Notes under the pieces: generated by a model
Told to the model about the DNA's origin: nothing
The model's input: the letters and a program-made list of their open reading frames with translations, nothing else
The model's database searches: none
Assembly: GCA_029262855.1 (NCBI GenBank)
Contig: JAJCYP010000031.1
Coordinates: 1-42,980, forward strand
From: Bacteroidota bacterium
Lineage (GTDB): Bacteria > Bacteroidota > Rhodothermia > Rhodothermales > UBA10348
DNA: 42,980 nucleotides
Direction of reading: 5' to 3'
Shown here: positions 250 through 42,980 of the stretch, piece after piece
How positions within the stretch are numbered: the first letter of the stretch is position 1
Layout: each line of letters begins with the position of its first letter
Made by a program: the position numbers and the translations under genes

Positions 250-394
250 TCTCGTCTCCGTTCAATTTTTCCCACGAGCGGCGAATGGCCTGAAGGCCGT
301 CGAGCCGCTCTTCAATGGTCTTGCTTGCCCAGAACGCCAAGTCGCGAGACTCCTGATCCGGATCGTTGAGACTGTATTCCTTGATGGTCGGCAT
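197..394 (-). CDS. Small partner protein of the nucleotidyltransferase
   Basis: A 65-residue ORF starting MPTIKEYSLNDPDQ at the ATG at 394. Its central part, ERLDGLQAIRRSW, and its end, VRIVERP, resemble the short proteins commonly found immediately 5' of nucleotidyltransferase genes (pattern: ..W..K..EERL..L..LR......R..RVIE). A longer frame extends upstream to 571, but that part is low-complexity Arg/Ser sequence antisense to the esterase leader, so the start at 394 is preferred. Its 3' end runs 53 bp into the nucleotidyltransferase. It probably acts with it, perhaps as the antitoxin-like member of the pair. No DNA-binding motif is visible. Confidence 0.65.
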   Translation of the reverse strand: MPTIKEYSLNDPDQESRDLAFWASKTIEERLDGLQAIRRSWEKLNGDENDRVEGLRGSVRIVERP

Positions 395-515
395 GGTTCT
401 CGAACGACGGCGGCCCGTCGGTGGTTCGCGCCTACTCTCACCGGAGGACGTCTCTGATCGTTGCATCCGCCCAGCGAGGCGAATACCATTCGGTTCCACC
501 GATTCCCTTATCGCC

Positions 516-2261: not shown

Positions 2262-2263
2262 TA

Positions 2264-3865
2264 ATGCCGATTACGAGAAAACGAGTCAGCTACCTCATCA
2301 TTTGCCTGGCGGTAGTCGTTGTAGCTATCGCCCTCGCACCGAAGCTCATCGGCCTCATTGTGCAGGGACGGACCCAGCCCCAAGGCGAGACCAATCTCCG
2401 CTTCACTGAGGTGGAGACCGACTTCAGCCATCGGTTCGATGCCGACGAGGCCCTGCCGTTCATGGCCCTGGCCGCCCTTGATGTGGACGGCGATGGCATC
2501 GACGAGGTATTTGTCGGTGGCGGCTTCGGGCAGCCTGACGCGCTGTTGAGATACGCGAATGGCGAGTTTGTGACCACTTCCGAAGCAGGGTCCTTCTACA
2601 AGGCATCCGGCGAGGTGTCGTACGGAGCTGGATCCCTCGATCTGGATGGCGATGGCGATGTGGATCTCATCGTCGCGCGCGACACCGGCCTGTATCTGTT
2701 CGAGAATCGCGACGGCTCGTTTGCAGGCAGCATCATCGACTTCCCTCTCGATCCACAATCGATGCCCCTGAGCGTTTCGTTTGGAGACATTAACAAGGAT
2801 GGTTTCGCAGATCTCTTCGTGTCCAACTACATCCGCCCGGAGTTCGTGGAGGGCGAGACCATTTTCAATCAGGAGTACGGCGGGATCAGCAACCTCCTCC
2901 TGAACAACGGTGACAACACCTTCGCGGACATCACGCGCTCTTCGGGACTCTATGTCCAGCACAACACGTTCACAGCTGCCTTCGTAGACCTCGACAATGA
3001 TGGATGGAGCGACCTGATTGTGGCTCATGACACGGGGATGCCCAGGGTCTATCGCAACAACGGTGATCTGACATTCACCGACGTCGAACTCCCCGTGACC
3101 TTCAGCTACCCGATGGGGATTGCCGTCAGCGATTACAACAACGACGGCTTGATGGACATCTACTTCAGCAATGTGGGCAAAACGCTCCCCGACTTTCTGC
3201 TGCGAGGAGACCTTCGAAAGGACCAGACACTGAATAAGGATTACATCCTGCTCCAAAACAATGGGGACTTCCGCTTCACGGATGCGGCCGCAGACCTGAA
3301 CGCGGACAACTACGGATTTGGATGGGGTCTGGTGTCCTTCGACTTCAACAACGACACGCTGGCGGACTATCTCATCACCCAGAATTACATCCGGTTCCCA
3401 AAGGTCGAACTCCTGGAGCTGTATCCGGGCAACCTGCTCCAGCAATACCCCGAAGGCGGATTCAAACCCGTCGAAAAAGTGGCCGGTATCGAGAACAAAC
3501 TGTTCGGGGTGACCACCATCGTGTCTGACTTCAATGAGGACGGATGGCCAGACGCGGTGATCGGCAATCTGAACGGTGACCTTCGGGCGTTCCTCAACGA
3601 CGGAGGCGACAACAACTGGCTCAAGGTTCGCCTGCCGGATGCCCCCTCATCCATCGGCGCCCGCGTTCGCCTCACGACCTCTGACGGCGCCACCTACTTC
3701 AATCAATTCTACACGAGCGAAGGCCTTGGCTCAGATCAGACCTCCGATCTGTTTTTCGGACTCGGGAGCAGCGAGAGCCTGGCGGAGCTGGAAGTGGCCT
3801 ACCAGAACGGCGACACCCTCCGCATTCCGAACCCGGCGATCAACTCCCTGATTCATGCCCGATAG
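2264..3865 (+). CDS. CRTAC1-type FG-GAP/VCBS repeat protein with ASPIC/UnbV C-terminus
   Basis: A protein of 533 residues from the ATG at 2264; a TTG at 2258 overlapping the esterase stop is an alternative. Residues about 8-33 form a hydrophobic N-terminal anchor or uncleaved signal. At least seven calcium-binding beta-propeller blades follow, each with a DxDxDGxxD-like loop, for example DVDGDGIDE, DLDGDGDVD, DINKDGFAD, DLDNDGWSD and DFNEDGWPD. The last about 85 residues (NNWLKVRL ... GARVRL ... LFFGLG) match the ASPIC/UnbV domain typical of CRTAC1-family proteins. It is likely an extracytoplasmic binding or adhesion protein. It sits between the esterase and a membrane protein whose ATG overlaps its stop by 11 bp. 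Confidence 0.85.
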   Translation: MPITRKRVSYLIICLAVVVVAIALAPKLIGLIVQGRTQPQGETNLRFTEVETDFSHRFDADEALPFMALAALDVDGDGIDEVFVGGGFGQPDALLRYANGEFVTTSEAGSFYKASGEVSYGAGSLDLDGDGDVDLIVARDTGLYLFENRDGSFAGSIIDFPLDPQSMPLSVSFGDINKDGFADLFVSNYIRPEFVEGETIFNQEYGGISNLLLNNGDNTFADITRSSGLYVQHNTFTAAFVDLDNDGWSDLIVAHDTGMPRVYRNNGDLTFTDVELPVTFSYPMGIAVSDYNNDGLMDIYFSNVGKTLPDFLLRGDLRKDQTLNKDYILLQNNGDFRFTDAAADLNADNYGFGWGLVSFDFNNDTLADYLITQNYIRFPKVELLELYPGNLLQQYPEGGFKPVEKVAGIENKLFGVTTIVSDFNEDGWPDAVIGNLNGDLRAFLNDGGDNNWLKVRLPDAPSSIGARVRLTTSDGATYFNQFYTSEGLGSDQTSDLFFGLGSSESLAELEVAYQNGDTLRIPNPAINSLIHAR

Positions 3866-4550
3866 CACCGTCTACAATAGACTGCTCTGGACCGGACTCG
3901 CAGGCCTCGCTGCGGCTCTTCTGGTCGGAATCGGGGAGTTCACGTTCCAGTTTTCAACCTCCGGGGGCTACGAAGAAGCGGGCTACCGGTATTTCGCCGA
4001 TGTCTCCGTTGGGCGACTCACTTTCGGGCATTTCCTGAGTACGCTCGCCGCGCCCCTGTACGTGGTCGGGTATTGGCACCTCGGGCAGATGTTTGTTCAG
4101 GGCGGCAGCAAGCGGTCCGGCTGGGCCATCACCCTGGTCGGCGCCTATGCCTTTGTGGTGGGAAACGCCTGGCTGGGCGGACGGGTCTTTTTGGCGTTGA
4201 CGGCACACCAGATCGCGGCTGCATCGGACCCCGGAGTAGTTGGCCAACTCAACACCCTGCTGTCGGATTTTGGAGCGCATAACGAGCCGCTGGTGAACGC
4301 CCTCCGAATAGCGATGGCCGTTGTTTCCATCATCTGGGTCAAGCAAATAGTCTCCGGCCACTCACTCTACCCGAAATGGGCCGCCATCTTTAGTCCCGCC
4401 CTCTTGCTGGCGGCAATCTTCGCGTCCTACTTCCTGATTCCAGCGGTCGGTGTCTGGCTGCTGCCGGCCGCGATGAACCTGGTCCATTTTGTGGTATTCG
4501 GGATCTCCCTGTATGCACTGACCCAGACTCGGCGGAATCAGGGTGGATAG
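3855..4550 (+). CDS. Multi-pass membrane protein (DUF6796-like)
   Basis: A protein of 231 residues, mostly hydrophobic, with about six predicted membrane spans (roughly 11-30, 56-76, 90-110, 145-163, 174-193 and 196-218). The N-terminal pattern (GIGEFTFQF, then RLTFGHFLSTLAAPLYVVGYWH) resembles a Bacteroidota membrane family that I recall as DUF6796; this assignment is from memory. It has no enzymatic motif. The ATG at 3855 overlaps the upstream stop by 11 bp, and the downstream GTG at 4543 overlaps its own stop, so the four plus-strand genes look translationally coupled. Function unknown. Confidence 0.65.
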   Translation: MPDSTVYNRLLWTGLAGLAAALLVGIGEFTFQFSTSGGYEEAGYRYFADVSVGRLTFGHFLSTLAAPLYVVGYWHLGQMFVQGGSKRSGWAITLVGAYAFVVGNAWLGGRVFLALTAHQIAAASDPGVVGQLNTLLSDFGAHNEPLVNALRIAMAVVSIIWVKQIVSGHSLYPKWAAIFSPALLLAAIFASYFLIPAVGVWLLPAAMNLVHFVVFGISLYALTQTRRNQGG

Positions 4551-5001
4551 GACCCGAAGCATCTCACTTGCGCTTCGCGTCCTGCTCTTCGCACTCATGG
4601 GTTTGGGCTGGATCGGTGGGCTTCTGGTGTCCATCGACACCATCACCGGCGCCGACGCCTGTCCAGAGATAGGCTTCGTTCCGGCCTGCTACGTCGTGCT
4701 GCTCGGCTACTCTCTGATGTTGGTTTCGGCTGCCCTCCCGCGCTGGCGGTGGGGCAAGTGGCTGTTCGTTTCAGGAGCAACACCGGTCGCGCTACTGGCT
4801 GTCTTTGGGTCGGTCTCGGAGCTGCTCGTTGGCGAAACCTGTCCTCGTTCGGAATCCGGCGTGCCGCTTTGCTATGTCTCGCTCGCGCTGGTGGCCGTGA
4901 TTGTGGCGCTCTACTGGCGATGCTCTCGGAAGTCAAGCTTCTCAAACGCGCGACTTTTCCAGGGCGTGAACCCACCATTCCGGTCATGGGTGAGGAGGTA
5001 G
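4543..5001 (+). CDS. Four-span membrane protein with duplicated CP...PxCY motif
   Basis: A protein of 152 residues starting at a GTG that overlaps the upstream stop by 8 bp. Four hydrophobic spans are visible (about 10-31, 48-65, 73-92 and 108-125). Between spans 1-2 and 3-4 lie related loops, ACPEIGFVPACYV (Cys40, Cys49) and TCPRSESGVPLCYV (Cys100, Cys110), suggesting an internal duplication. Both loops would lie on the same face, probably periplasmic, so they could form disulfides or bind a metal or haem. This is inferred; I do not recognise a characterised family. The last 30 residues are basic and overlap the 3' end of convergent apbE by 91 bp, so the native C-terminus may be shorter. Confidence 0.55.
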   Translation: MDRTRSISLALRVLLFALMGLGWIGGLLVSIDTITGADACPEIGFVPACYVVLLGYSLMLVSAALPRWRWGKWLFVSGATPVALLAVFGSVSELLVGETCPRSESGVPLCYVSLALVAVIVALYWRCSRKSSFSNARLFQGVNPPFRSWVRR

Positions 5002-5975
5002 ACCGCCCAACCTTCGCGATTGGCAAGCTCCAGCGCATCCTCGGGCGATAGAACGCCAAGCGCCGTGGCCAGCGCGTCTGCCTCGGCTGCCGTTGGACGG
5101 ATTACGGACACGGAGGCCGTGCGACGAGCCACCGGCTCGCCCGAACGCGGGTCGAACGTATGGCTGATAATCTGTCCGTCGACCTTCCGGAAACTGCGAT
5201 AGTCACCCGAGGTCGCGAGCGCTCCCCCGGCAGCGGACGGCTTGAGGACGGCGTGGAGATGCCGGGCGTCGCGCAGGGGCTCTTCAATTGCGAGGGTCCA
5301 GGGTGCGCCCTTCCCTTTCTCGCCACGAACGCGGATCTCGCCGCCCACTTCGACCATGTAGTTGGTGACCCCCAGACGCTCGAGCGCCTCGGCCACCTTG
5401 TCCACTCCGTATCCCTTGGCGATGCCCCCGAAATCAAGCTCCACGTCCGGGATGCGCTTGGTCATGGTCATCGACTTCCGGTCAAACTCTATCAGCTCGA
5501 TGCCGACGCGGTTCCGAATGGCCGACAGTTCCTCTTCACCAGGCCTCTCTTCCGAGGCGTTTGAGCCAAACCCGAAGGCGCCAATGAGCGGGCGCACGGT
5601 AGGGTCAAACGCTCCGGCGGTTTTCGAGTTGATCTCGATGGCGAGACCCAGAACTTCGGCGAAGGCTTCCGAGAGCGCATGGGGCACACCCGCTTCGGCG
5701 CGATTCAGTCTGCTGATCTCGCTGTCAGGCTCCCAGGTCGACATCGACTTGACGACGTCGTCAAGGGCTGCCCGAACCGCGGAGGCTGCCAGTTCGTCGG
5801 CGTTTGGGCCTGGAGAGGTGTACTTCACCGAGAAGGTGGTGCCCATCGTCAGGCCTGCGATCGAGGTGACATCCGGCGCCGCCTCTGGCGTCAGGCGCCA
5901 CCACCCGATAGCGATTATGGCAAGGACGAGGGCTACAATCGCGGCTCGTCGGTATTGGGTCGAGGAGGTTTCCAT
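4911..5975 (-). CDS. apbE: FAD:protein FMN transferase
   Basis: A protein of 354 residues. A membrane-anchoring hydrophobic stretch (about 11-28) precedes the ApbE domain, so the enzyme acts outside the inner membrane. It transfers FMN from FAD to Thr/Ser of target redox proteins with Mg2+. Diagnostic segments are MGTTFSVKY (44-52), the conserved DFGGIAKGYGVDK (181-193), the GDYR motif (257-260), SHTFDPRSG (271-279) and the metal-binding AEADALATA region (297-305). It is the last gene of a leftward cluster behind two small haem-copper-oxidase-like membrane proteins and the nar genes, suggesting it flavinylates an electron-transfer protein. No obvious target (RnfG/NqrC/NosR-like) lies within the window. 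Confidence 0.93.
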   Translation of the reverse strand: METSSTQYRRAAIVALVLAIIAIGWWRLTPEAAPDVTSIAGLTMGTTFSVKYTSPGPNADELAASAVRAALDDVVKSMSTWEPDSEISRLNRAEAGVPHALSEAFAEVLGLAIEINSKTAGAFDPTVRPLIGAFGFGSNASEERPGEEELSAIRNRVGIELIEFDRKSMTMTKRIPDVELDFGGIAKGYGVDKVAEALERLGVTNYMVEVGGEIRVRGEKGKGAPWTLAIEEPLRDARHLHAVLKPSAAGGALATSGDYRSFRKVDGQIISHTFDPRSGEPVARRTASVSVIRPTAAEADALATALGVLSPEDALELANREGWAVYLLTHDRNGGFTPWKSRAFEKLDFREHRQ

Positions 5976-6005
5976 GTAGTCAACTGTCGGTGTCGTCGCG
6001 TTTGG

Positions 6006-6404
6006 CTAGCCGCGAAAGCTTCTGATCCTGGGCCAGATGCTCCTCGCAAATGCCACCAGGGCCACTGCCTGTAGCACACGGGCCAGGAGAGAAATCTCAC
6101 CCGGCCACCCCGCCAGCGGCACGAGCCCTACCGTCCAGAGCCCTGCGTTCAGCAAGAGGCCCGCTACCCAGGGCAAGCGGGTCGGCATTCGCTCCGGAGT
6201 CCGGGGCAGAATCCACCAGGCCACCCCAAAGGCCAGTTGAATCACGAAGCCAAACAGCAGGATTTCAACATGCAGCGGTCGCAGTATCCAGATCCATGCT
6301 GGCACTGCCACCCCCTTCCCGACGAGCAGGACTGCGCCAAGGGTCGCCCCGAGCGCAAGATGCACCAGCGACAGTCTGACCAGCCACACGGAAACCCTGG
6401 GCAT
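6006..6404 (-). CDS. Half-size haem-copper-oxidase-like membrane protein (copy 2)
   Basis: A protein of 132 residues with four predicted membrane spans, started at the ATG at 6404 (MPRVSVWLV). The longer frame to 6662 overlaps the preceding gene and is rejected. The second span, LHVEILLFGFVIQLAFGVAW, followed by WILPR, has the H...L..G......FG....LP pattern of short proteins usually annotated as cbb3/NorB subunit I-like. It is paralogous to the adjacent 6407-6814 gene (same length, same span layout, same motif) and starts 2 bp after its stop. A haem- or NO-related role is inferred from family resemblance and the nitrate-respiration context. It lacks the full set of His ligands of a catalytic oxidase. 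Confidence 0.65.
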   Translation of the reverse strand: MPRVSVWLVRLSLVHLALGATLGAVLLVGKGVAVPAWIWILRPLHVEILLFGFVIQLAFGVAWWILPRTPERMPTRLPWVAGLLLNAGLWTVGLVPLAGWPGEISLLARVLQAVALVAFARSIWPRIRSFRG

Positions 6405-6406
6405 GG

Positions 6407-6814
6407 CTACTTCACCTTTACCCGCGGCCACAGGTGAACGACGAATGCCAAGCACCCCGCCCACTGGAGAAAGGCCGAGAGTATTACAGCCCAGGCGAAC
6501 CCGGCGTCCGCCGCAAACGGCTCGGACGCCAGTCTGAGCAGTAGCCCGGAATTGAGCATCGCGTACCCCGCCCAGGCCAACGGGACGCTGCCGTGGGGAC
6601 GTTCGCGGGAATACCGGGGAAAAAGCCAGTGGGCTACGCCGAAGATCAACTGCGACAACCACCCCACCACGAGAAGGTGTACCTGTGAGGGCGCCGCCGT
6701 TGCCAGCTCAGGAAACGTGTGGAGGCCCGGCGGGGTCAGGAGCATCCCGATCATCAGCGCCACCACCAGGTAACCCAGTGCGGTCTTGATTATGATCCGC
6801 GATAGTGTGGGCAT
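6407..6814 (-). CDS. Half-size haem-copper-oxidase-like membrane protein (copy 1)
   Basis: A protein of 135 residues with four membrane spans. The diagnostic stretch is VHLLVVGWLSQLIFGVAHW followed by LFPRYS, the same H..V.G......FG...W.[LI].PR pattern as its neighbour at 6006-6404. The pair therefore looks like a tandem duplication of a half-module of cytochrome-oxidase/NO-reductase subunit I. It begins 5 bp after the M2 peptidase stop and ends 2 bp before its paralogue, so peptidase, both membrane proteins and apbE probably form one transcript. Haem binding is possible through the His in the second span; this is an inference. Confidence 0.65.
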   Translation of the reverse strand: MPTLSRIIIKTALGYLVVALMIGMLLTPPGLHTFPELATAAPSQVHLLVVGWLSQLIFGVAHWLFPRYSRERPHGSVPLAWAGYAMLNSGLLLRLASEPFAADAGFAWAVILSAFLQWAGCLAFVVHLWPRVKVK

Positions 6815-9423: not shown

Positions 9424-10995
9424 CTAGCACGCGACGCCGGAATTCTTCCGGTCGTAGTAGTACCAATTCAGGCCCAGACATATAACGTAGTAGATGGCGA
9501 ACCCGTAGAGCGCATACTCGGCATGGCCGGCCCCGATCTGCTGCCCGAACACCCGGGGGATAATGAAGGCCCCGTAGGCCGCTACGGCGGAGGTCCAGCC
9601 CAGTACAGGACCTGCCTGGGACGGCTTGAAGATGTAGGGCACGCTGCGGAAGGTCGAGCCGTTGCCAATCCCCGTGGTCACGAACAAAATCAAGAAGAGG
9701 ATCAGGAAGGGTAGGAAGAAGTCTTCGGGCGCCGTGCTCTCGCGCGCCTGAACCACAAAATAGGCCACGCCGAGCGCGGCAATGATCATGGCGACGGTGG
9801 TCCAGTGGGTGACCTTGGATCCACTGCCCACCCTGTCAGAGACCCAGCCTCCCACCGGGCGCACCAACGAACCCACGAGCGGGCCGAGCCACGCGTACAT
9901 GAAGGGATTCGGAGCGTTCGGATTGAGGGTCCCATCTTGGAGCGTTCCGAATACATCCTGGATCAGCTTGGGGAACGCCGCCGAATAACCAATAAAGGAC
10001 CCGAACGTCATCGTGTAGATGATGGTCATGATCCAATTGTGCTTGTTGCCGAAAATGGCAAACTGCTTGTTCAGGTTCTCCTTCAGTTCACCGGGTGACA
10101 GGTACTTCATGAGCACAACCGTCAGTACGATCGTGATCGGAAGCACCAGCCACATATTCCAGCCCAGGCCCAGCAGCAGATAGAGTCCGACTCCCGCTGC
10201 CACGACTCCCAGACCGACCAGAAACAAGGTCTTCAACAGAGAGGCGGCTGTCTGATGGGACTTTGGCGAAACGTGCGCCAGGTTGTTCATGCCGAACCAG
10301 GCGGCAATGGCAGCGATTGCAATGAGCGGCACCCAAATGAAACCAGCGTTCTGGATCCACACCAGTGTCCCAGCTGCTGCATCACCCACGGCCTCCGGAA
10401 GCGGAATGCCTGCACCACCCAGAGCACCGAAAACGGCGAATCCCATCACGAAGGGCACAAGTACCTGCATGACGCTGACGCCCAGATTGCCGAGACCCGC
10501 GTTCAGTCCAAGCGACGAACCCTGCACCCGTTTCGGAAAGAAGAAGCTGATGTTGGACATCGAGGACGCGAAGTTGCCGCCCCCGAATCCAGACAGCGCC
10601 GCCAGGATGGCAAACGTCAAATACGGCGTGGTTGGATCCTTGAGCGCAACCCCGACACCCATCGTCGGGATCAAGAGCAACGCGGTCGTTGCAAAAACGA
10701 CATTCCGTCCACCACCTACTGCGATCAGGAAGGAATTCGGGATTCGGAGTGTTGCACCGGCCAGACCTGCGATGGCCGGCAGCGTATAGAGCAGCGCGGT
10801 GTGGGCCGCCGGGTCGGGATCGAAGCGGAAGCCCAGGCGCTCCATCTGGACTATGATGATGCTCCACATCAGCCATACGGCAAAACCCAGGAGCAGGCAG
10901 GGAATCGAAATCCAGAGATTCCGCTTGGCGATCCGGCTTCCGGTGGAGTCCCAGAAGGCCGGGTCTTCCACATTCCAGTCCTTCAGGCTAGCCAT
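9424..10995 (-). CDS. narK: NarK-type nitrate/nitrite transporter (second copy)
   Basis: A protein of 523 residues started at the ATG at 10995 (MASLKDWNVED). The longer frame to 11256 overlaps the preceding narK and is rejected. It is an MFS protein of the nitrate/nitrite porter family. The nitrate signature appears at about 150-190 as GFGGGNFASSMSNISFFFP followed by GLNAGLGNLGVS. It is longer than 12-span NarK: an extra hydrophobic pair around the middle (LFLVGLGVVAAGVGLYLLLG, then MWLVLPITIVLTVVL) suggests 14 spans. It follows the first narK by 46 bp. Two-NarK sets often combine nitrate/H+ symport with nitrate/nitrite exchange; which copy does which cannot be read from sequence. Confidence 0.9.
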   Translation of the reverse strand: MASLKDWNVEDPAFWDSTGSRIAKRNLWISIPCLLLGFAVWLMWSIIIVQMERLGFRFDPDPAAHTALLYTLPAIAGLAGATLRIPNSFLIAVGGGRNVVFATTALLLIPTMGVGVALKDPTTPYLTFAILAALSGFGGGNFASSMSNISFFFPKRVQGSSLGLNAGLGNLGVSVMQVLVPFVMGFAVFGALGGAGIPLPEAVGDAAAGTLVWIQNAGFIWVPLIAIAAIAAWFGMNNLAHVSPKSHQTAASLLKTLFLVGLGVVAAGVGLYLLLGLGWNMWLVLPITIVLTVVLMKYLSPGELKENLNKQFAIFGNKHNWIMTIIYTMTFGSFIGYSAAFPKLIQDVFGTLQDGTLNPNAPNPFMYAWLGPLVGSLVRPVGGWVSDRVGSGSKVTHWTTVAMIIAALGVAYFVVQARESTAPEDFFLPFLILFLILFVTTGIGNGSTFRSVPYIFKPSQAGPVLGWTSAVAAYGAFIIPRVFGQQIGAGHAEYALYGFAIYYVICLGLNWYYYDRKNSGVAC

Positions 10996-34998: not shown

Positions 34999-35406
34999 CT
35001 ACCGGAGCTCCTTCCGGATCACCACCTTGAGGCCGGACCAGGTCTCGTCGACGGCGCAAACCTTGATGTCCACCAGCCCGAGCGGAAAGGCCTCCGCGCG
35101 GACCGCGTCTTCAGACATGTCGGTGGGGACCTTCGAAGCCTTCTTCGGCCAGGAAACCCAGATCATCCCGGCGGGCTTGATTCGGGTGCGAGCGATGGGC
35201 AGGTGATGTGCAAGGGCTGCCCGCTCCATTACGAAGAGGTGAATCAGATCGAGGGGAGTCTCGTTCGCCCCATCGACAAAACGAACGTTGGGCGGAAGGC
35301 CGGTGAGCAGACTGTGGTAGTGCCCCGGCTCATCAATTGTCTGGGCCAGGTAGCCTTCCTTGTAGCCCAGTTTCCGGTGGAGGGGTGTGCCTGAGTAGCC
35401 GCTCAT
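34999..35406 (-). CDS. DUF3052 family protein
   Basis: A protein of 135 residues: MSGYSGTPLHRKLGYKEGYL at the start, LIHLFVMERAALAHHLPIAR in the middle and the diagnostic GMIWVSWPKKASKVPTDMSE, ending VCAVDETWSGLKVVIRKELR. This is the DUF3052 family, with the WVSWPKK segment fully conserved. The biochemical function is not established. Its ATG overlaps the uvrC stop by 4 bp (ATGA), so it is co-transcribed with uvrC, and its 3' end meets the truncated kinase. Confidence 0.88.
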   Translation of the reverse strand: MSGYSGTPLHRKLGYKEGYLAQTIDEPGHYHSLLTGLPPNVRFVDGANETPLDLIHLFVMERAALAHHLPIARTRIKPAGMIWVSWPKKASKVPTDMSEDAVRAEAFPLGLVDIKVCAVDETWSGLKVVIRKELR

Positions 35407-37256
35407 GGTCCTGCCAGTTCGTCGTTCCCCTCAAAATAGGCTACCAGGCGTGCTACGGTTTTCGGTCCTACGGCATCCCGCAGTTGCTCCTCGTCGGCCG
35501 CCCGCACGCCCTTGACACTGCCGAACTGCTTGATGAGTTTTCGCGCGGTGTGCTCCCCGATTCCGGGTACGTCGGTAAGTTCTGTCTTCAGTTCGGCCTT
35601 TCGCTGTTTGCGCTGAAGCTGGACGGCAAACCTGTGGGCCTCGTTCCGGGCACGTTGCAAGAGCTGGAGGGAGGCACTCGCCCGCGGAATGAATACAGAT
35701 TCCTTGTCGCCGGGGAAGAAGACCTCTTCCAGTTTTTTCGCCAGGCCCACGACAGGAAATTTTCCATAGACGCCCGCGTCGCGCAGCGCGGCGGACGCGC
35801 TGGTGAGCTGGCCCTTTCCGCCGTCGATGACCAGGAGGTCGGGGAGCGAGCCGTTCTCCTCCATCCGGCGGGTATACCGGCGACGAACCACCTCCTCCAT
35901 GGAGGCGAAGTCGTCCGAGCGACCGCCGCCCACGGTCCTCACCTTGAAGGACCGGTACTCGGATTTGCGAGGCTTCCCGTCGATGAACACCACGCACGAG
36001 GCGACCACGCCGGTCCCCCCCAGATGGGACACGTCGAAACACTCGATGCGGCGTGGCGGCTTGGCCAGCTTCAGATCATCCTGCAGTTGTCTCACGGCGT
36101 GCGGCAGTCGGCCTTCGCCCTGGACAACTCGTTGTTGTTTGAACTCCTCCAGAATCAGCGCGGCGTTGGAGGAGACCATCCGAATTAGCGCGGCCTTGTC
36201 GCCGCGCTTGGGCTCGTGAAGGAGGATGTTCCGGCCCTTCTGCTCTCGCAGGAAAGCCGCCACGGTATCCGGGTCCTCCAGTGGCGTGTCGAGGAAGACT
36301 TCGTCCGGGAAGAAGGTGGCTTCGGAGTAATACCTCTCCACCACCAACTGCATCAGTGCCGCATCGCTTTCCTCCTCGATCCGGTTGAGATACTGCTGTC
36401 GGGAGCCGACTATCTTGCCGTCGCGAACCTGAAACATGGCGGCGCTGGCAATCGCCTCCTCCCGATCCACGGCCAGGGCAAACAGATCCCGGTCGACCTC
36501 CTCGAGGCTGACCACCTTCTGGCGCTCGGCGTATTTCTCGAGCGCGTGGATACGATTCCTGAGATCGGCCGCGATCTCGAACTTCATGGCGGCCGCCTGA
36601 TCCTTCATGTCGTCCTTCAGGAGCCGAATGAGGGTGCCGGTCTTGCCGTTGAGAAGCTGCTCGACCTGCCGGACGGTATTATCGTAGTGGTCTTCGCTCT
36701 CCAGCGCCACGCAGGGGCCCAAGCATTTCTTGATGTGGTACTGGAGGCAGACCGAGTACTTGCCGTCGGCGATGGGCTTGGGCGACAGGTTCAGCGAGCA
36801 CGTCCGCAGCTTGAAGATGGACCGGATGGTGTCGAGCATGAGGCGCATGCTCTTCACGTCCGCGTAGGGCCCGAAGTACCGGGACCCATCCTTGTAGATC
36901 CGGCGCGTGGGGAAGACCCGGGGGAAGGGCTCCTTCTTGACGACGATGTAGGGATAGGACTTGTCGTCCTTCAGGTTGACGTTGTACCGCGGCCTGAACC
37001 TCTTGATGAGGTTGTTCTCCAGGATGAGGGCCTCTGCCTCGGTGTCCGTGACGATGATGTCCACGTCCGCCACCTTCCTGACGAGCGCCCGGAGTCGCCC
37101 TTCGCGGTGTCCCGCAGCCTTGAAGTACGAGTTGACCCGGCTGCGCAGGTTCTTCGCCTTTCCCACGTAGAGAACCTTCCCGTCCGCGTCTTTGTGCTGA
37201 TAGACGCCGGGCTTCTTGGGGAGGTTGGCTAGCTTCTCGCGCAGGATGTCTTCCAT
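35403..37256 (-). CDS. uvrC: UvrABC excinuclease subunit C
   Basis: A protein of 617 residues from the ATG at 37256 (MEDILREKLANLPKKPGVYQ); the upstream frame to 37385 is Arg-rich and rejected. The N-terminal GIY-YIG nuclease (PGVYQ ... VLYVGKAKNLRSRVNSYF, residues 16-45) makes the 3' incision. Cys153, Cys170, Cys178 and Cys182 match the UvrC Fe-S ligand set. The UVR motif (DQAAAMKFEIAADLRNRI) contacts UvrB. The RNase-H-like domain (IECFDVSHLGG, LLVIDGGKGQL, then HRFA) makes the 5' incision, and C-terminal helix-hairpin-helix motifs (DVPGIGEHTARKLIKQFGSV) bind DNA. Complete. DUF3052 follows with a 4-bp overlap. Confidence 0.97.
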   Translation of the reverse strand: MEDILREKLANLPKKPGVYQHKDADGKVLYVGKAKNLRSRVNSYFKAAGHREGRLRALVRKVADVDIIVTDTEAEALILENNLIKRFRPRYNVNLKDDKSYPYIVVKKEPFPRVFPTRRIYKDGSRYFGPYADVKSMRLMLDTIRSIFKLRTCSLNLSPKPIADGKYSVCLQYHIKKCLGPCVALESEDHYDNTVRQVEQLLNGKTGTLIRLLKDDMKDQAAAMKFEIAADLRNRIHALEKYAERQKVVSLEEVDRDLFALAVDREEAIASAAMFQVRDGKIVGSRQQYLNRIEEESDAALMQLVVERYYSEATFFPDEVFLDTPLEDPDTVAAFLREQKGRNILLHEPKRGDKAALIRMVSSNAALILEEFKQQRVVQGEGRLPHAVRQLQDDLKLAKPPRRIECFDVSHLGGTGVVASCVVFIDGKPRKSEYRSFKVRTVGGGRSDDFASMEEVVRRRYTRRMEENGSLPDLLVIDGGKGQLTSASAALRDAGVYGKFPVVGLAKKLEEVFFPGDKESVFIPRASASLQLLQRARNEAHRFAVQLQRKQRKAELKTELTDVPGIGEHTARKLIKQFGSVKGVRAADEEQLRDAVGPKTVARLVAYFEGNDELAGP

Positions 37257-37320
37257 CGCGCGGAGAAACGTTGGGGGGCGGGCAAAGATTCGGCGGCGGC
37301 TGCGCGCGCCACCCTTCAGG

Positions 37321-38313
37321 TCACGGAGCGCGTCGGAGTGCAGCCTCGGCGAAGTCGCCCAGGAGTTTCGCGTAGCCGTCCGCAAAGCGATACATCGGGG
37401 GAAAGCCCCGAACGCCTCCCAATTCGTGACCCTCGTCCTCGAACACGTACCAGGACACCGGGATCTGTCGAGATGCCAATTCCGTCAGCCGTACAACGCT
37501 CGCGCGCGTAGGAATGTTGATGTCCTGCGCCCCGTAGACATAGAACATGGGCGTAACGGTACGCTCGAGATATGGGCCTGGATCGTAACCGATGTCGGCC
37601 AGGTAATCCGGGTCCGGCCGCTCCAATTGCGTGGGTAACTGCGAATCTTCCCGGCCGACCCACTCCGCGAGCAGTGCCTCAAGTGCTTCCTTTTCGGGCA
37701 TCGTGGGTTGGAGCCGATAGGCCCAGATCCGGCGATAGATATTCGTCTGTTCTTTTGCGCTCTCCTCCGCCACTCCATCCGCCACAAAGTCGTTCTCCAA
37801 CTCCCAGGCCACTGTTTCCCGGACGGAAAGCGACGACCCCACTTTGTTGATCACGAACGAAAGGTCGCCAGCCCTCTCGGCTATTTCGGGCGTGAACCAG
37901 CCCGACTGGCTGGCGGCCACCACGCCGACCCGGGTTGGATCGATCTCGTCAAGACTCCGCGCGAAGCTGATCGCTGCCAGCGCGTCCTCAATGAAGTCCG
38001 AATAGGAGGCGTCGTTATGGCTGCCCTCAGATTCGCCGGCCCCACGTTTGTCATACAGGAGGACCGCGAGACCCCGTTCCGCAAGCAGGTTGGCGTGCAT
38101 GCGGTAGGCCATGCTCCTCGTGGCAGCCTCGGCCCCATGCAGCAACACAACTCCAGGGAACGGGCCATCGCCCTGCTCAGGAAGCAGCAGCGTCCCGGCC
38201 AGCCCGACGCCGTCCGAGCTTTCAAACTGAACATCCCGCGTGGTGCCGGAATACGTCGCACATCCCGAGAGAAGGGTGAACAGAAAGAGTAGGCTGATGG
38301 CGGGAGTCTTCAT
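37321..38313 (-). CDS. Alpha/beta-hydrolase lipoprotein
   Basis: A protein of 330 residues from the ATG at 38313 (MKTPAISLLFLFTLLSGC, lipobox Cys18), so it is membrane-tethered outside the cytoplasm. The domain runs GVVLLHGAEAATRS (oxyanion HG, 59-60), LLYDKRGAGES, nucleophile Ser137 in VVAASQSGW and late His in EDEGHELGG, with an Asp in VYGAQDINIP as likely acid. The nucleophile elbow A-S-Q-S-G is a normal variant of GxSxG. It resembles BAAT/acyl-hydrolase-type esterases; the substrate is unknown. It lies 64 bp from uvrC and is divergent from the YdeI-like gene. Confidence 0.83.
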   Translation of the reverse strand: MKTPAISLLFLFTLLSGCATYSGTTRDVQFESSDGVGLAGTLLLPEQGDGPFPGVVLLHGAEAATRSMAYRMHANLLAERGLAVLLYDKRGAGESEGSHNDASYSDFIEDALAAISFARSLDEIDPTRVGVVAASQSGWFTPEIAERAGDLSFVINKVGSSLSVRETVAWELENDFVADGVAEESAKEQTNIYRRIWAYRLQPTMPEKEALEALLAEWVGREDSQLPTQLERPDPDYLADIGYDPGPYLERTVTPMFYVYGAQDINIPTRASVVRLTELASRQIPVSWYVFEDEGHELGGVRGFPPMYRFADGYAKLLGDFAEAALRRAP

Positions 38314-38394
38314 GGGATCGGGTGTTGGGTGTTGCAAGAACGAGCGTGCACCTGTTAGTGTTACAGGCCTCTATCACCCCAGGATCTTGACGGA

Positions 38395-38892
38395 ATGAAT
38401 CCGCCTCACATCTTCGCGGCCCGCATCGCCCAGATAGACACAGGAATCGTCTCGCACATCGTGCCCATCCCACCGGAGATCGGGGAGGAGTACGTCGAGG
38501 CGGGTGCTCGCCGCGTGATTGCCCTGCTCAATGGGGCAGAAGTGCGCCGCTACCTGTTTCAGACCAAGGACGGCGAGCACGCCATCATGGTCGGCAAATC
38601 CGTGATCCGGGACCTGGGGCTTCCTACAGAGGAGCCCCTGATCGTCGAACTGCGTCCCGACCCTGACCCGGATCGAGTGGATCTGTGTCCGGAACTGGTG
38701 GCGGCCCTGGCCCTCGACGAGCCGGCCTCCGAGCGGTTCTACGGATTGAGTCCCGGAAGGCAGCGATCGTTCGCTCTTCACGTATGCGGTGGAAAGCGGT
38801 CGGCGACGCGCGAAAAGCGGGCCCTGGAGGTAGCGCGGAAGCTGCGCACCTACACGCTCTACGACGATCTCCGGCCTGGAGAAAACGGGTAG
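38395..38892 (+). CDS. YdeI/OmpD-associated family protein (DUF1905 + OmdA)
   Basis: A protein of 165 residues. The first half (HIVPIPPEIGEEYVEAGARR, ALLNGAEVRRYL, GEHAIMVGKSVIRDLGL) is DUF1905-like, a small beta-barrel. The second half (LALDEPASERFYGLSPGRQR, SFALHVCGGKRSATREKRAL) is the YdeI/OmdA helical domain with its conserved K..TR..R pattern. Members are cytosolic and have been linked to bacteriocin tolerance or cell-envelope association in other bacteria; nothing here tests that. Single-gene unit on the plus strand; it ends 2 bp from the convergent YbjQ-like gene. Confidence 0.82.
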   Translation: MNPPHIFAARIAQIDTGIVSHIVPIPPEIGEEYVEAGARRVIALLNGAEVRRYLFQTKDGEHAIMVGKSVIRDLGLPTEEPLIVELRPDPDPDRVDLCPELVAALALDEPASERFYGLSPGRQRSFALHVCGGKRSATREKRALEVARKLRTYTLYDDLRPGENG

Positions 38893-38894
38893 AC

Positions 38895-39215
38895 CTACTC
38901 GTCCTCCATCGTGACCGCCGTCCCGTAGGCCAGCATTTCGGCTGCGCCCCCCATGACTACCGACGTGGCGATGCGCACTGATACCACGGCGTTCGCGCCC
39001 AGTTTGCGCGCGTCCTCCATCATGCGTTCCAGGGCCTCCTCGCGGCTCTGCTCGAGGAGTTCGCCGTAGGCCTTGATCTCGCCGCCGATCATGTTCTTGA
39101 ACAGGGCCCCGATATCCTTGCCCAGATGCCGGGCCCGGATCGTGTTACCACGGACCAGTCCGTGAGTGAGGGTAATCTTCTTCCCCTGAATGTCGGGGGT
39201 CGTGACAATCATCAT
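38895..39215 (-). CDS. YbjQ/UPF0145 family heavy-metal-binding-domain protein
   Basis: A protein of 106 residues (MMIVTTPDIQGKKITLTHGL; the second Met at 39212 is an alternative start). The pattern VRGNTIRARHLGKDIGALFKN, GGEIKAYGELLEQSREEAL, ANAVVSVRIATSVV and AYGTAVTME is that of YbjQ proteins, small pentamer-forming proteins sometimes annotated as heavy-metal binding. It overlaps the creatininase-family stop by 4 bp, so the two are co-translated. Function unproven. Confidence 0.9.
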   Translation of the reverse strand: MMIVTTPDIQGKKITLTHGLVRGNTIRARHLGKDIGALFKNMIGGEIKAYGELLEQSREEALERMMEDARKLGANAVVSVRIATSVVMGGAAEMLAYGTAVTMEDE

Positions 39216-39985
39216 GGCGATTCGGCGTACAGATTGGAGGGGTCGGCGGCTGCAAGATCAATCAGGAACGAGGCGATGCGCTCCGAAAGGGCGCCTGCGA
39301 ACCTCTCGCCCTTTACGGCAGAGGCGTGTTGCGGGTTACCTATCCCGGTGTCGGCCGAGACCTGGGTCCATGGTCGAGGGGTCCACGCCCAACCCTCGCG
39401 GAATGCCGCGATGCGGGAATGCCACTCGCTTCCGTCACCGGCCGCCGCCAGGGGCGACACCAGATCCTGAGCAAAATGCATCATCAGGCTGGTCTCCATT
39501 TCCCCCGCATGGTCGCCCGGCTCCTCAAACCAGGCGTCATTGTCGAGAATCCGGTACCAGTTGATCGCACACAGGAAGATGTCGACCTCTGGCTGAAGCT
39601 CGCGAATCATCTGGCGAAAATCGTTGCCCCCGTGGCCGTTCAAAATCACCAGCTTCGGAACTCCCTGTCCGGCAAGAGACTCGGCCACATCGCCCAACAC
39701 AGCCATCTGCGTGCTGGGATTCATGTTGACGCACAGCGGGATGTCCAATTGTCCGGTCTGGACACCATATGGGACGGTGGGCAGCACGGTGACCTTGGCA
39801 CCGGCTCCCCAAGCGCGCTCGGCAGCGAGAGCCGCCAGGTGGTCGCACTGGATCGTATCGGTCGCGTATGGCAGGTGGTAGTTGTGCGCCTCGGTGGCAC
39901 CCCAGGGCAGGACGGCTACCTGATACCGGATCTGGCGAACCGTGTCCCAGGTAGTCTCGGCCAGTATGTATGGACGTCCGCTCAT
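39212..39985 (-). CDS. Creatininase-family amidohydrolase
   Basis: A protein of 257 residues from the ATG at 39985 (MSGRPYILAETTWDTVR); the frame continues to 40090 but that stretch has no family match. Metal-binding residues of the creatininase fold are visible: Glu32, His34 and His37 (PWGATEAHNYHLPYATD) with Asp43, His118 in LNGHGGND, and Glu162 in GDHAGEMETS. Relatives cleave creatinine, mycofactocin precursor or formamide-type substrates, so the substrate cannot be fixed. Coupled to the YbjQ-like gene; divergent from the FG-GAP lipoprotein. Confidence 0.9.
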   Translation of the reverse strand: MSGRPYILAETTWDTVRQIRYQVAVLPWGATEAHNYHLPYATDTIQCDHLAALAAERAWGAGAKVTVLPTVPYGVQTGQLDIPLCVNMNPSTQMAVLGDVAESLAGQGVPKLVILNGHGGNDFRQMIRELQPEVDIFLCAINWYRILDNDAWFEEPGDHAGEMETSLMMHFAQDLVSPLAAAGDGSEWHSRIAAFREGWAWTPRPWTQVSADTGIGNPQHASAVKGERFAGALSERIASFLIDLAAADPSNLYAESP

Positions 39986-40155
39986 GTCAGTTGGGTCAAA
40001 TCTTTCGCACAAACTCGGACTTGAGGCCCCTCGCTCCAATACCCGGGACCACATGGCGGCATCGGGTGCTGAAGGGTCGCAGAATACCACCGAGCCGCCT
40101 GTACGATTACAGTTGGCGAGGCTATTCTTCTGATATCATCCGATACGGGTTCCAA

Positions 40156-41841
40156 ATGCGATTTGCTCCCCTGCTGCTCCTTGCCCTGATGGCCTGTCAG
40201 GAGTCCGGGTCTCCAGCACAGGTCGCTCGAACCCCAGATCTCCAGCCGGCTTTCCAGCAGTTCTCGAATGGCGATGTGGACGGTGCCCTGGCCACGCTCG
40301 ATTCGTTGGAGGCCGCCCATCCCGACGCGGCCCAGATCTTCGCGGCGAGAGGGCAGTTTTTGAGGCAGGGTCAGGATCTCGAAGGCTCGCTTGCCGCCTA
40401 TGAGAGGGCCGCAGATCTCGCCCCGCAGGGTGCCGGTACGCTATTCAATCTGGGGGTGGCCTATGGCCTGCTTGAGCGGGATGACGAGGCCATGGGCGCC
40501 CTGGAGCGGGCACGTGACGCAGGCTATAACGTCTTCGGGATTGCCAACACCCCGCCGGGGGCTCGCCTCGCGGGGCATGCCAGGTACGCGAGCCTCTTTC
40601 CTTCCGCGGCGGACTACGCGGATCCGTTTGTTGAGAGCACCCGCATCATTCATGACTGGACGGGCGAGAACCCGAGGGATCAGTTTGGCTGGGTCGCGCG
40701 GAATGTGGGAGATGTGGATGGGGACGGCGTAGACGATGCGGCATCGAGTGCTACCACCAACAATGACGGGGCGCAGGCCGGCGGCAAGATCTATGTGTTC
40801 TCCGGGGCGTCGGGCCAACTGCTCTGGACCGCCGTGGGAAGCGACCCGTCGGGGCGACTCGGCTTCGTGGTCGAGGGAGCGGGCGACGTCAACGGTGACG
40901 GGACGCCCGATGTGATCGCCGGAGCGCCGTATGCGAACAAGGCCTTTGTTTACTCAGGGCGGGACGGGGCTTTAATCCGGACGCTTGCGGGCAATGACCC
41001 AGCCGGCGCTTTCGGTGCGGGAGTGACAGGCCTGGGCGACATTGACGGCGATGGATTCGGAGATCTTCTGGTTGGCGAGCCCCACCAGATATGGGGAGCA
41101 CCGCTGGGTGGAGGGGCGTTGGACGACCCCGGAGCCGCACACGTGTTTTCGGGTCGGGACGGATCGTCGTTGCTCACGCTCCGTGGTCAGAACCCCGGGG
41201 ACGGCTTCGGCGCGACGCTCGCAGCCGGGATGGACGGTTCTGTCTTCGTGGTCGGCGCTCCCTCTGCGGGGGAGGGGCAGCGTGGGCAAGCCTTTGTCTA
41301 CCACGGCCTGGACCCGGAGCCGCTTTTCGTCCTCGTCCCTGCGGAATCCGGCGTTAACTTCGGCGCCATGTTCATGTCGGTGATGGGAGATGCGGACGGC
41401 GATGGCGTCGACGACATCTATGTCTCTGACTGGGCGGACGGATCCAAGGGGCCCTCGACGGGCAGGATCTACGTCTTCTCGGGCGCGGACGGATCGAAAC
41501 ACCTCGAACTCGAAGGCGAGGCAGCTGGCGACGGATTCGGGATCGGCGTGTCCGACGCGGGCGACATAGACGGAGACGGGCGGGCGGACCTGATCATCGG
41601 CGCGTGGCAGCACGCGAGTGCGGCGGCCTCGGGCGGGAAGCTCTACGCGTACTCGGGTGCCGACGGAGCGCTACTCCACACGGTGACCGGGAAGGTGATG
41701 GGCGAGACGCTGGGCTTCGATACCACCGGTCTCGGGGATGTGGATGGCGATGGGACTGTGGACTTTCTTGTCACCTCGGCGTGGAGCGGCATCAACGGAT
41801 TCCAGAGTGGACGGACGCTGGTGATCTCGGGTCGGGATTAA
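40156..41841 (+). CDS. FG-GAP repeat lipoprotein with N-terminal TPR
   Basis: A protein of 561 residues from the ATG at 40156 (MRFAPLLLLALMACQES, lipobox Cys14); the extension to 39970 is antisense to the creatininase gene. Residues about 30-125 are tetratricopeptide-like (GDVDGALATLDSLEAAHPDA, LFNLGVAYGLLERDDEAMGA). Then follow about six integrin-type FG-GAP blades with calcium loops: DVDGDGVDD, DVNGDGTPD, DIDGDGFGD, DADGDGVDD, DIDGDGRAD and DVDGDGTVD. Blades read Y.FSGA.G.L...., the integrin alpha pattern. Surface-exposed binding protein; ligand unknown. It shares the TPR-plus-propeller design of the 31587-33689 product but with a different propeller type. Confidence 0.88.
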   Translation: MRFAPLLLLALMACQESGSPAQVARTPDLQPAFQQFSNGDVDGALATLDSLEAAHPDAAQIFAARGQFLRQGQDLEGSLAAYERAADLAPQGAGTLFNLGVAYGLLERDDEAMGALERARDAGYNVFGIANTPPGARLAGHARYASLFPSAADYADPFVESTRIIHDWTGENPRDQFGWVARNVGDVDGDGVDDAASSATTNNDGAQAGGKIYVFSGASGQLLWTAVGSDPSGRLGFVVEGAGDVNGDGTPDVIAGAPYANKAFVYSGRDGALIRTLAGNDPAGAFGAGVTGLGDIDGDGFGDLLVGEPHQIWGAPLGGGALDDPGAAHVFSGRDGSSLLTLRGQNPGDGFGATLAAGMDGSVFVVGAPSAGEGQRGQAFVYHGLDPEPLFVLVPAESGVNFGAMFMSVMGDADGDGVDDIYVSDWADGSKGPSTGRIYVFSGADGSKHLELEGEAAGDGFGIGVSDAGDIDGDGRADLIIGAWQHASAAASGGKLYAYSGADGALLHTVTGKVMGETLGFDTTGLGDVDGDGTVDFLVTSAWSGINGFQSGRTLVISGRD

Positions 41842-42243
41842 CCCAAACCTTGGCCTGGAGAGATTTAACCGTCGCATCAACCCGCTGGCACCCGGAATGA
41901 CCGGAACCACATCTCGCTCATACTCCGTTCTGCACTCCAGGGGTCGCCTTATCCAGGGTTTCTCCATTGGGATGCTCTTCAGTTTTAGTGTCGCCGTAGG
42001 CACATGTGACTCCCAGTCCGGCCTCTATGAGTCGCCCCGGTCTTGGAACGTTTCCGGGCTTGACGCAGCGGGATTTGGAAACAGGGTACCATGACCACAG
42101 AATCGCCATGCTTGTTGGAGTGGACCGGTAGGAAGAACTCCTTGAGGCAGTCGAGGAACTGGATGCTGTCCGCGACGGGTATGTATTCGGGGCCCTGAAA
42201 CACGACAACGGGGCACCGACCGAATAAGTCGATGTCCCGCTTG

Positions 42244-42290
42244 TGATCCCGCCTGGGTTCGAACCAAGGAACCCCTGATTAAAAGTCAGA
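42244..42290 (-). pseudogene. tRNA-Lys(TTT) 3'-end fragment, candidate attachment site
   Basis: On the minus strand: anticodon stem TCTGA/TCAGG around loop CTTTTAA (anticodon TTT at 42281-42283), variable GGTTC, T-arm CTTGG-TTCGAAC-CCAGG with full pairing, then acceptor 3' half CGGGATC and discriminator A. No matching 5' half exists: the upstream sequence (42291-42340) has no D arm or GATCCCG acceptor strand. A 3' tRNA remnant is the usual footprint of tyrosine-integrase insertion into a tRNA gene. Its orientation puts the inserted DNA on the right (higher coordinates). Confidence 0.8.
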
Positions 42291-42307
42291 TGGCACTCGC
42301 TGCTAGC

Positions 42308-42324
42308 GTATTGTATCGCAATAC
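42308..42324. repeat. Inverted repeat next to the tRNA fragment
   Basis: GTATTG (42308-42313) and CAATAC (42319-42324) with a 5-nt spacer, 18 bp beyond the tRNA-Lys fragment. It could be an integrase or directionality-factor site of the inferred element; position is the only support. Confidence 0.4.
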
Positions 42325-42478
42325 ATTACGGTGCAGTCGATTGGCGCTGATACGCACATGATACGATGTAGCGAGCGTTGTGTGAAGGTAGTCGGCCGGG
42401 AGTGGAGGGAGGAGACTGAACCTCGTCGATCAGAAGAGGGTAAAACGACTTCTCTAACGAGTTTAAACGCAAGGGCCA

Positions 42479-42516
42479 CCTCTTAGGTCTGATCAGGGCG
42501 CTAGTATCCTAAGAGG
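42479..42516. repeat. 9-bp inverted repeat with 20-nt loop
   Basis: CCTCTTAGG (42479-42487) and CCTAAGAGG (42508-42516) are perfect inverted arms. It could be a transcription terminator or a recombination site in the non-coding stretch. No T-run follows. Confidence 0.45.
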
Positions 42517-42609
42517 ATCCGCCGGACCCCCTTTCGACTGCCACCTTCTCAGGCAAAAGCCGATCTGATGTATCGTGATTGAGCCACTACCTCCGCGACA
42601 GCGTCCACA

Positions 42610-42627
42610 CTTGTGTTGACACACAAG
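42610..42627. repeat. Perfect palindrome overlapping the peptide-gene promoter
   Basis: CTTGTGT-TGAC-ACACAAG (7-bp arms) centred on the -35 element of the promoter before the 42693 gene. A repressor bound here would block polymerase, so it is a likely operator. Confidence 0.5.
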
Positions 42628-42644
42628 GTCTGGCTGCGTAAACT
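42616..42644 (+). promoter_or_regulatory. Sigma70-like promoter for the Cys-rich peptide gene
   Basis: A consensus TTGACA (42616-42621), 17-bp spacer and TAAACT (42639-42644, 4 of 6), about 50 bp before the ATG at 42693. The canonical -35 hexamer differs from the Bacteroidota-type promoter proposed for the chromosomal 24632 gene. It sits inside the palindrome at 42610-42627. Confidence 0.5.
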
Positions 42645-42692
42645 CAGTGCGATTGACTAGGAAACTGAATCCTCCACAATGCACTAATTACC

Positions 42693-42923
42693 ATGAGTAA
42701 ACTGATCAAAACAGGATCCTATATCTCCTGTATCCTTATTGTCGTCGCACTATCCTCAACTTCATTGTCGGCGGAAACCCCTTATTGTAACCTCCAGTGC
42801 GGGGACATTATTTGGGGCTCTGACTGCGAGAACCATTGGCTTTATTCCCCCCAGGAATGCGTCGACGCTGTTTGGTTCGCTTACGAAGCTTGTTTGGAAG
42901 ACTGCGTGACACACTATGTCTAG
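42693..42923 (+). CDS. Small secreted cysteine-rich peptide, unknown family
   Basis: A protein of 76 residues: a strong signal peptide (about 1-27: basic MSKLIK, hydrophobic ISCILIVVALSS, then LSA) and a mature part of about 49 residues with six cysteines (CNLQC ... SDCEN ... QECVD ... EACLEDC), an even number suited to disulfides, acidic overall and rich in Trp/Tyr. It does not match a family I know. It follows a canonical promoter with an operator-like palindrome, and lies in AT-richer DNA to the right of the tRNA-Lys fragment. It may be a secreted peptide of the inferred element, such as an effector, bacteriocin or adhesin-like peptide; none is shown. Confidence 0.6.
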   Translation: MSKLIKTGSYISCILIVVALSSTSLSAETPYCNLQCGDIIWGSDCENHWLYSPQECVDAVWFAYEACLEDCVTHYV

Positions 42924-42980
42924 TAAGGAATAGGCACATCTGAGCGCCCCTTTCAATATCCGATTGATGAGGCTAGGGGC

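Follow-up and report, generated by a model that had tools for sequence, protein, structure and literature searches.

The window, the 42,980-nucleotide stretch of DNA analysed here, is the whole of contig C31 in a 4.74-Mb draft genome of 146 contigs. Towards its right end a uvrC-like gene and a gene for a TPR/FG-GAP repeat protein are followed by a stretch of 57% G+C, a 3' fragment of tRNA-Lys(TTT) and a segment of low G+C that, as the initial annotation had noted, runs off the right side of the contig at position 42980 (Table 1). The last 141 bases of the window (42840..42980) are exactly the first 141 of another contig of the same genome, C127 (9919 bp), onto which the segment continues. The names uvrC, nth, mazG, ssb, amidohydrolase, creatininase-like, YbjQ-like, DUF302-type, permease, VIT, the met genes, XRE and IS66 were given by eye, without a family search. 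All genomes compared are draft assemblies, and where 20, 30 or 60 relatives were searched they form a sample. The 57% G+C stretch may be part of the insertion described here; neither of two ORFs tried in it has an NCBIfam match, and one is also without a Pfam match.

Table 1. Features of the locus, of a second block in the same genome and of the full element in a genome of the same genus (G002).
Feature	Position	Strand	Remark
uvrC-like gene	35406..37277	-	name by eye; conserved left flank
TPR/FG-GAP repeat protein gene	39970..41841	+	left neighbour
Stretch between FG-GAP gene and fragment	41842..42242	.	G+C 57%; two ORFs tried
tRNA-Lys(TTT) 3' fragment, anticodon arm to discriminator	42243..42292	-	by homology; putative att core, attR-type end
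Left part of element relic, low G+C	42293..42980	.	continues on C127 from 142 to somewhere in 2052-2377
Paired direct repeat CGTATCA-TGTG-CGTATCA	42348..42365	-	candidate arm-type integrase-binding site; 81 bp before the fragment's TTTTAATCAG
Promoter-like site TTGACA-17-TAAACT	42616..42644	+	consensus match only, 10 of 12
76-aa Cys-rich ORF, orphan	42693..42923	+	7 Cys; signal-like N-terminus (by eye)
329-aa lipoprotein-like ORF	C127:190-1179		weak DUF5128 Pfam match, below cut-off
Disrupted tyrosine-integrase C-terminus (stub)	C127: about 1763-2053	-	internal stop
nth	C127:2378-3007		name by eye; first chromosomal gene after relic
Second tRNA-Lys fragment block	C124 (L191) 264-6803		between amidohydrolase gene (by eye) and mazG
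Second tRNA-Lys fragment	C124:264-315	-	
Second-block repeat	C124:389	-	
Full element, Rhodothermales bacterium SS_bin_36	JABDJZ010000433.1 (G002:C266)		same genus
G002 tRNA-Lys	2292-2365		
G002 415-aa tyrosine integrase	2530-3777		PF00589
G002 tRNA-Lys fragment	8469		

On the minus strand the fragment reads CATCTGACTTTTAATCAG...CGGGATCAC. It is 90% identical over 50 bp, with five differences, to the genome's intact copy of tRNA-Lys(TTT) (C107:6918-6967), and its anticodon stem and T stem, inspected by eye, both pair with one G-U each, in agreement with the earlier description of a tRNA-Lys(TTT) 3' portion that has intact stems and no 5' half. Because neither ARAGORN nor Rfam (at gathering thresholds) makes a call at 42243-42292 and the folding of this stretch is not unusual (z = -0.32), the identification as tRNA rests on homology. 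The exact 18-mer CATCTGACTTTTAATCAG occurs in the genome in the window fragment, in the intact tRNA on C107 and in a second fragment on C124; one further match, on C87 with one mismatch, was rejected as a tRNA fragment, its continuation not being tRNA-like by eye. Also ruled out was tRNA-Lys(CTT) as the source, since the acceptor end of the fragment is that of the TTT gene. A tRNA 3'-end fragment from the same genome, one element of the Islander definition of a tRNA-gene island, is thus present; the second copy of the 3' segment that the initial annotation had predicted did not turn up, a 45-base search with up to 3 mismatches finding the window copy only. Identity to the tRNA-Lys of another genus (G017) reaches 94% over 53 bp, and one T-stem base pair of the fragment is found in the tRNA-Lys of some other genera and is absent from that of its own genome and of the sister genomes G001 and G002. 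This base pair gives a hint, and no more, that the fragment may have arrived together with the element.

The segment beyond the fragment, which we call the relic, measures 2.6-2.9 kb, so a large unseen cargo to the right is not supported. Its G+C content (42293 to C127:2212) is 54.3%, compared with a mean of 60.8% and a minimum of 58.1% in 89 overlapping flank windows of equal size (overall, flanks of 61-63% against 54%), and the drop in G+C reported earlier is thus real. The description as almost gene-free also holds from the fragment to 42692, after which come the Cys-rich ORF and, on C127, the 329-aa ORF, which has a ScyF-like NHL match in NCBIfam far below cut-off. C127 also encodes a 178-aa ORF without a Pfam match. 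For the Cys-rich ORF no Pfam match passes the cut-off (the best, DUF4215, has E 0.092), PADLOC, NCBIfam, IMG/VR (viral_contigs) and phage searches are empty, and matches among the 114 genomes of the order are confined to its own genome, with none in the other 113; it was rejected as a known cargo on the strength of these searches. None of the three relic ORFs matches a Pfam family of phage structural or replication genes. The remaining genes probably do not form a functional unit, and the cargo does not look important. Of the integrase gene that the Islander definition places inside an island, only the disrupted C-terminal stub is present, 2.3 kb from the fragment. Beyond nth, C127 carries a VIT-family gene, three methionine-pathway genes and an ammonium transporter (by eye).

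Two smaller features had been singled out in the gene-poor part. The TTGACA promoter exists as a promoter-like sequence, of which 3 were observed against 0.7 ± 1.0 in shuffles. Of the inverted repeats there are four pairs, three perfect (9, 7 and 7 nt) and one, in the T arm, at 90%; as a signal they were dismissed for lack of a clear excess over other contig windows, with loops to 12 as well as to 40. For 7-nt arms and loops to 40, at least as many as the 2 pairs here occur in 30 of 60 other windows, and the 9-nt repeat at 42498 is equalled in 7 of the 60.

The paired repeat ties the fragment to a wider group of sites. Three other tRNA-Lys fragments (in G002, in G016 and on the genome's own C124) have the same repeat, or a version that differs by one base, at 81, 81 and 82 bp before their TTTTAATCAG, and it recurs 159 bp (G002) and 158 bp (G016) after TTTTAATCAG of the intact tRNA-Lys, with an integrase gene next to it. 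The window therefore has the arrangement of the G002/G016 family, CGTAKCA-N4-CGTAKC 81-82 bp before TTTTAATCAG at a fragment end. In 1,018,249 fetched, partly overlapping bases this motif has 6 matches, with 0.12 expected for uniform bases, and all 6 sit at tRNA-Lys att sites (4 fragment ends and 2 tRNA ends); the count is not an independent test, because the motif was derived from the window and G002, turned up next on C124 and was made one base wider once G016 was known, so that some of the counted sites went into its making. The fetched sequence contains no match to the reversed motif and none at spacings of 0-12 other than 4. A strict pattern of repeat plus core, outside which the G016 variant falls, is present in 2 of 114 genomes of the order, namely the genome itself (2 places) and G002 (1), with 0 in the control. 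Judging by their place and geometry, the repeats would bind the arm domain of the integrase, with recombination taking place at the core.

This geometry bears directly on whether the fragment resembles a tRNA by chance, or is an old pseudogene left by tRNA duplication, with no tie to a mobile element. Such an origin would account for the absent 5' half, the silence of ARAGORN and Rfam and the five differences over 50 bp; it is contradicted by the repeat at 81-82 bp, common to three other fragments, and by the integrase remains on the same side, and we consider it scarcely credible. The earlier proposal that the fragment is an att end of an integrase-borne element lying to its right is strengthened by the same two observations, the stub 2.3 kb away and the repeat distance that recurs at tRNA-Lys att sites.

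A full element of this kind is found in G002. It measures 6.15 kb from core to core (6153 bp) and runs in the order tRNA-Lys, repeat pair, 415-aa integrase, integrase stub, cargo, repeat pair and tRNA-Lys fragment; the cargo is an M36-like peptidase and a WD40-like lipoprotein, both below the Pfam cut-off. The window element keeps this order from the fragment to the integrase stub and is without the integrase-tRNA end. Over 291 bp its stub (C127:1763-2052) has 83% DNA identity with the G002 stub, and there is no tblastx match between the two cargoes. Of the integrase that follows the intact tRNA-Lys, G002 has the whole gene and G016 a part, its contig ending within the gene; the two are 57% identical over 148 aa. 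Although more distant tyrosine recombinases are present in the genome under study, the G002-type integrase has 0 matches there at E 1e-20; in place of the nearby tyrosine integrase with a complete tRNA-Lys that had been forecast, only the stub was recovered. The right end of the relic has no repeat pair, neither there nor beside the tRNA-Lys on C107 is there an integrase-end pair (158-159 bp after the core), and the best core match at that end covers only 9 of 18 bases; a complete pair of att sites is thus not present at the relic. In viral_contigs the G002 integrase has no confirmed relative, and its 58 matching phage records all fall below 60% identity (about 24% for the ten listed), on which grounds a phage origin was discarded. 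Stub matches occur in the genome on C127, C124, C98 and C73. As a separate observation, one genome of a related genus (G003) has 15 matches to the stub family, on contigs C80, C31, C56, C96, C64, C15, C67, C107, C34, C4 and C102, of which two lie in open frames of more than 300 aa and many are short or interrupted by stops; this is possibly an expanding and decaying recombinase family.

What lies on the far side of the relic bears on where the element sits. In all 9 relatives with an nth at least 70% identical, the uvrC match is 0.1-7.9 kb away from the nth match, and a BLAST match (E 1e-4) to the genome's own 41842-45227 is found at none of these 9 loci; the closeness of the two genes and the missing match support both the junction of C31 with C127 and an insertion particular to this lineage. 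An exact empty site is not found among the fetched genomes, G001 having other genes between uvrC and nth and the G002 contig ending at the counterpart of window position 39919. The neighbourhood is locally unstable: between the genome's own locus (window 35406-40090) and that of G001 (L143) the gene order differs, YbjQ-like and creatininase-like genes being placed differently. Where the Islander definition has an intact tRNA in the same orientation at the other end, 2-200 kb away, the right flank is nth, and no tRNA was found on C127. The intact tRNA-Lys(TTT) is on C107 (6916-6991, minus strand), with upstream neighbours common to the tRNA-Lys of G001 and G002, and in G001 tRNA-Lys and nth are on separate contigs, whose lengths, taken with the gene positions, put the two genes at least 545 kb apart. 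Integration of the element into a tRNA gene at this place is thus not supported.

The same evidence weighs on the reading as a normal genomic island in tRNA-Lys, with the intact tRNA and the integrase further right, outside the window. The orientation would be right for it, the fragment, repeat and integrase remains are present, and the exact 141-base overlap of contig ends suggests a branch in the assembly graph, such that other strains of the sample may continue differently. The continuation through C127 to nth is nonetheless backed by synteny in 9 of 9 relatives, the tRNA-Lys(TTT) has its own shared neighbours on C107 and the G002-type integrase is missing at E 1e-20, all of which makes such an island improbable.

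Around tRNA genes elsewhere, two further observations were made. In 7 of 17 scanned genomes tRNA-Leu(GAG) follows tRNA-Lys(TTT) on the same strand within 0.8 kb, some of the 17 loci ending at contig edges; in the genome under study, G001 and G002 no tRNA-Leu(GAG) follows in the stretch fetched, the genome's own being at C10:10691. Integrase matches of the genome adjoin tRNA-Lys(CTT) and tRNA-Arg(CCT) (C6:3564-4046 and 4619-4691; C36:9595-9667 and 9827-10018), which are possible further tRNA-associated islands.

The second fragment belongs to a block of its own. After the repeat, the block on C124 has an asparaginase-family gene, a gene for an unknown protein and one for a PNP_UDP_1 protein; this last matches PADLOC PDC-M60C (E 4.5e-37) and is a candidate defence cargo. 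Next come an integrase stub of 63 bp, an IS66-like end and genes for an XRE-like protein and a lipoprotein, with mazG and ssb beyond. Outside the block, C124:1-146 and mazG from 6804 match stretches only 63 bp apart in G002, and the gap between the same aligned flanks is 106 bp in G001 and 518 bp in G010. In total, 9 of the 19 relatives from which mazG loci were fetched match on both sides with less than 0.6 kb between the aligned parts, and the remaining 10 have no match to the left side. Flanks that are closed up or near each other in relatives mark both blocks, on C31 and C124, as insertions into conserved neighbourhoods that are not tRNA loci. Since the two sides of each block lie next to each other in relatives, a chromosomal translocation was ruled out as the cause of the position away from tRNA.

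Our preferred explanation, to which we give a probability of roughly 0.8, is that the fragment is the attR-type end of a degraded integrative element whose family has a tyrosine integrase with tRNA-Lys(TTT) as its specific target. In all likelihood the parent element inserts itself into tRNA-Lys(TTT) and makes the tRNA whole again with the copy of the 3' end that it brings. How a relic of a tRNA-Lys-specific element came to sit outside tRNA genes we infer as follows: the element would have landed at a non-tRNA site, bringing its own tRNA-Lys 3' end along, would have been unable to leave and would then have decayed. The simplest reading would be that the element inserted off target, then lost its integrase end and decayed; the window copy is the outer end of such an element, without the integrase end. 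In its simple form off-target insertion meets a difficulty, as a crossover in the anticodon loop would leave chromosomal rather than tRNA sequence past the loop; since the whole tRNA 3' end is kept, either the crossover lay near the acceptor end or another process, such as recombination between repeated stubs, placed the block. Against the attR-type end of a degraded element also speak the missing G002-type integrase at E 1e-20, the missing att pair, a cargo unlike that of G002 and the want of an exact empty site among the fetched genomes.

That other process could have been the sole agent, the block of stub, cargo, repeat and fragment having been moved out of a tRNA-Lys island by homologous recombination or by another transposable element rather than by the integrase. 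In favour of this, stub matches lie on C127, C124, C98 and C73, the closest G001 match to the C124 lipoprotein gene (80%) lies about 0.8 kb downstream of tRNA-Lys, and the C124 block includes the end of an IS66-like transposase (by eye). Both blocks, however, share their outer end, fragment and repeat together, which fits an att end better than random breakpoints, and a move of this kind is possible without being the likelier course.

On the reading as an attR-type end, the relic is real and traceable and of a familiar kind, without exciting cargo. An anonymous tRNA fragment can be assigned to an integrase family that is defined and recognised by its att signature, in which paired 7-bp repeats flank the tRNA-Lys core on each side at a set distance. 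One genome also holds two tRNA-derived att ends at non-tRNA loci, one of these loci being closed up in relatives, which calls for caution with island finders that take a tRNA fragment as the mark of a tRNA insertion. More doubtful, and to be taken as a tentative generalisation, is that small Rhodothermales elements carry the tRNA-Lys 3' end as a portable end and repeatedly land at non-tRNA intergenic sites, scattering partial att sites. If this were true, such sites could serve as new landing pads and a stray tRNA fragment would not by itself point to a tRNA gene as the insertion site.

A thin search by title and start of abstract showed no paper that seems to treat this tRNA-Lys element family. 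The Islander report (PMC4383910) gives a 3' tRNA fragment for 3760 of 3919 islands and an anticodon-centred site for 2083 of 3919, and describes restoration of the tRNA from the element's own 3'-end copy. Like these islands, the window relic has a 3' fragment from the anticodon arm to the end, remains of a tyrosine integrase and the element 5' of the fragment; unlike them, it has no bordering tRNA gene, its integrase is a stub and its right flank is the ordinary neighbour of the left. With the G002 element it shares the repeat pair, the core, the integrase stub and the order from the fragment end, whereas the G002 element has the 415-aa integrase, the tRNA-Lys end and other cargo. The Thermus phage phiFa (MH673672.2) is alike in having a XerD-like integrase with an annotated tRNA-Lys immediately upstream, and differs in being a phage rather than an island and in an integrase only 24% identical to that of G002. 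For ICEBs1, PMC3715440 reports excision from seven secondary sites as reduced at four and undetectable at three; the window relic resembles it as a tRNA-specific element outside its tRNA, for which poor excision is an expected route to decay, with the difference that ICEBs1 is experimental and intact with a 17-bp core, whereas the relic keeps the tRNA 3' end on its repeat side.
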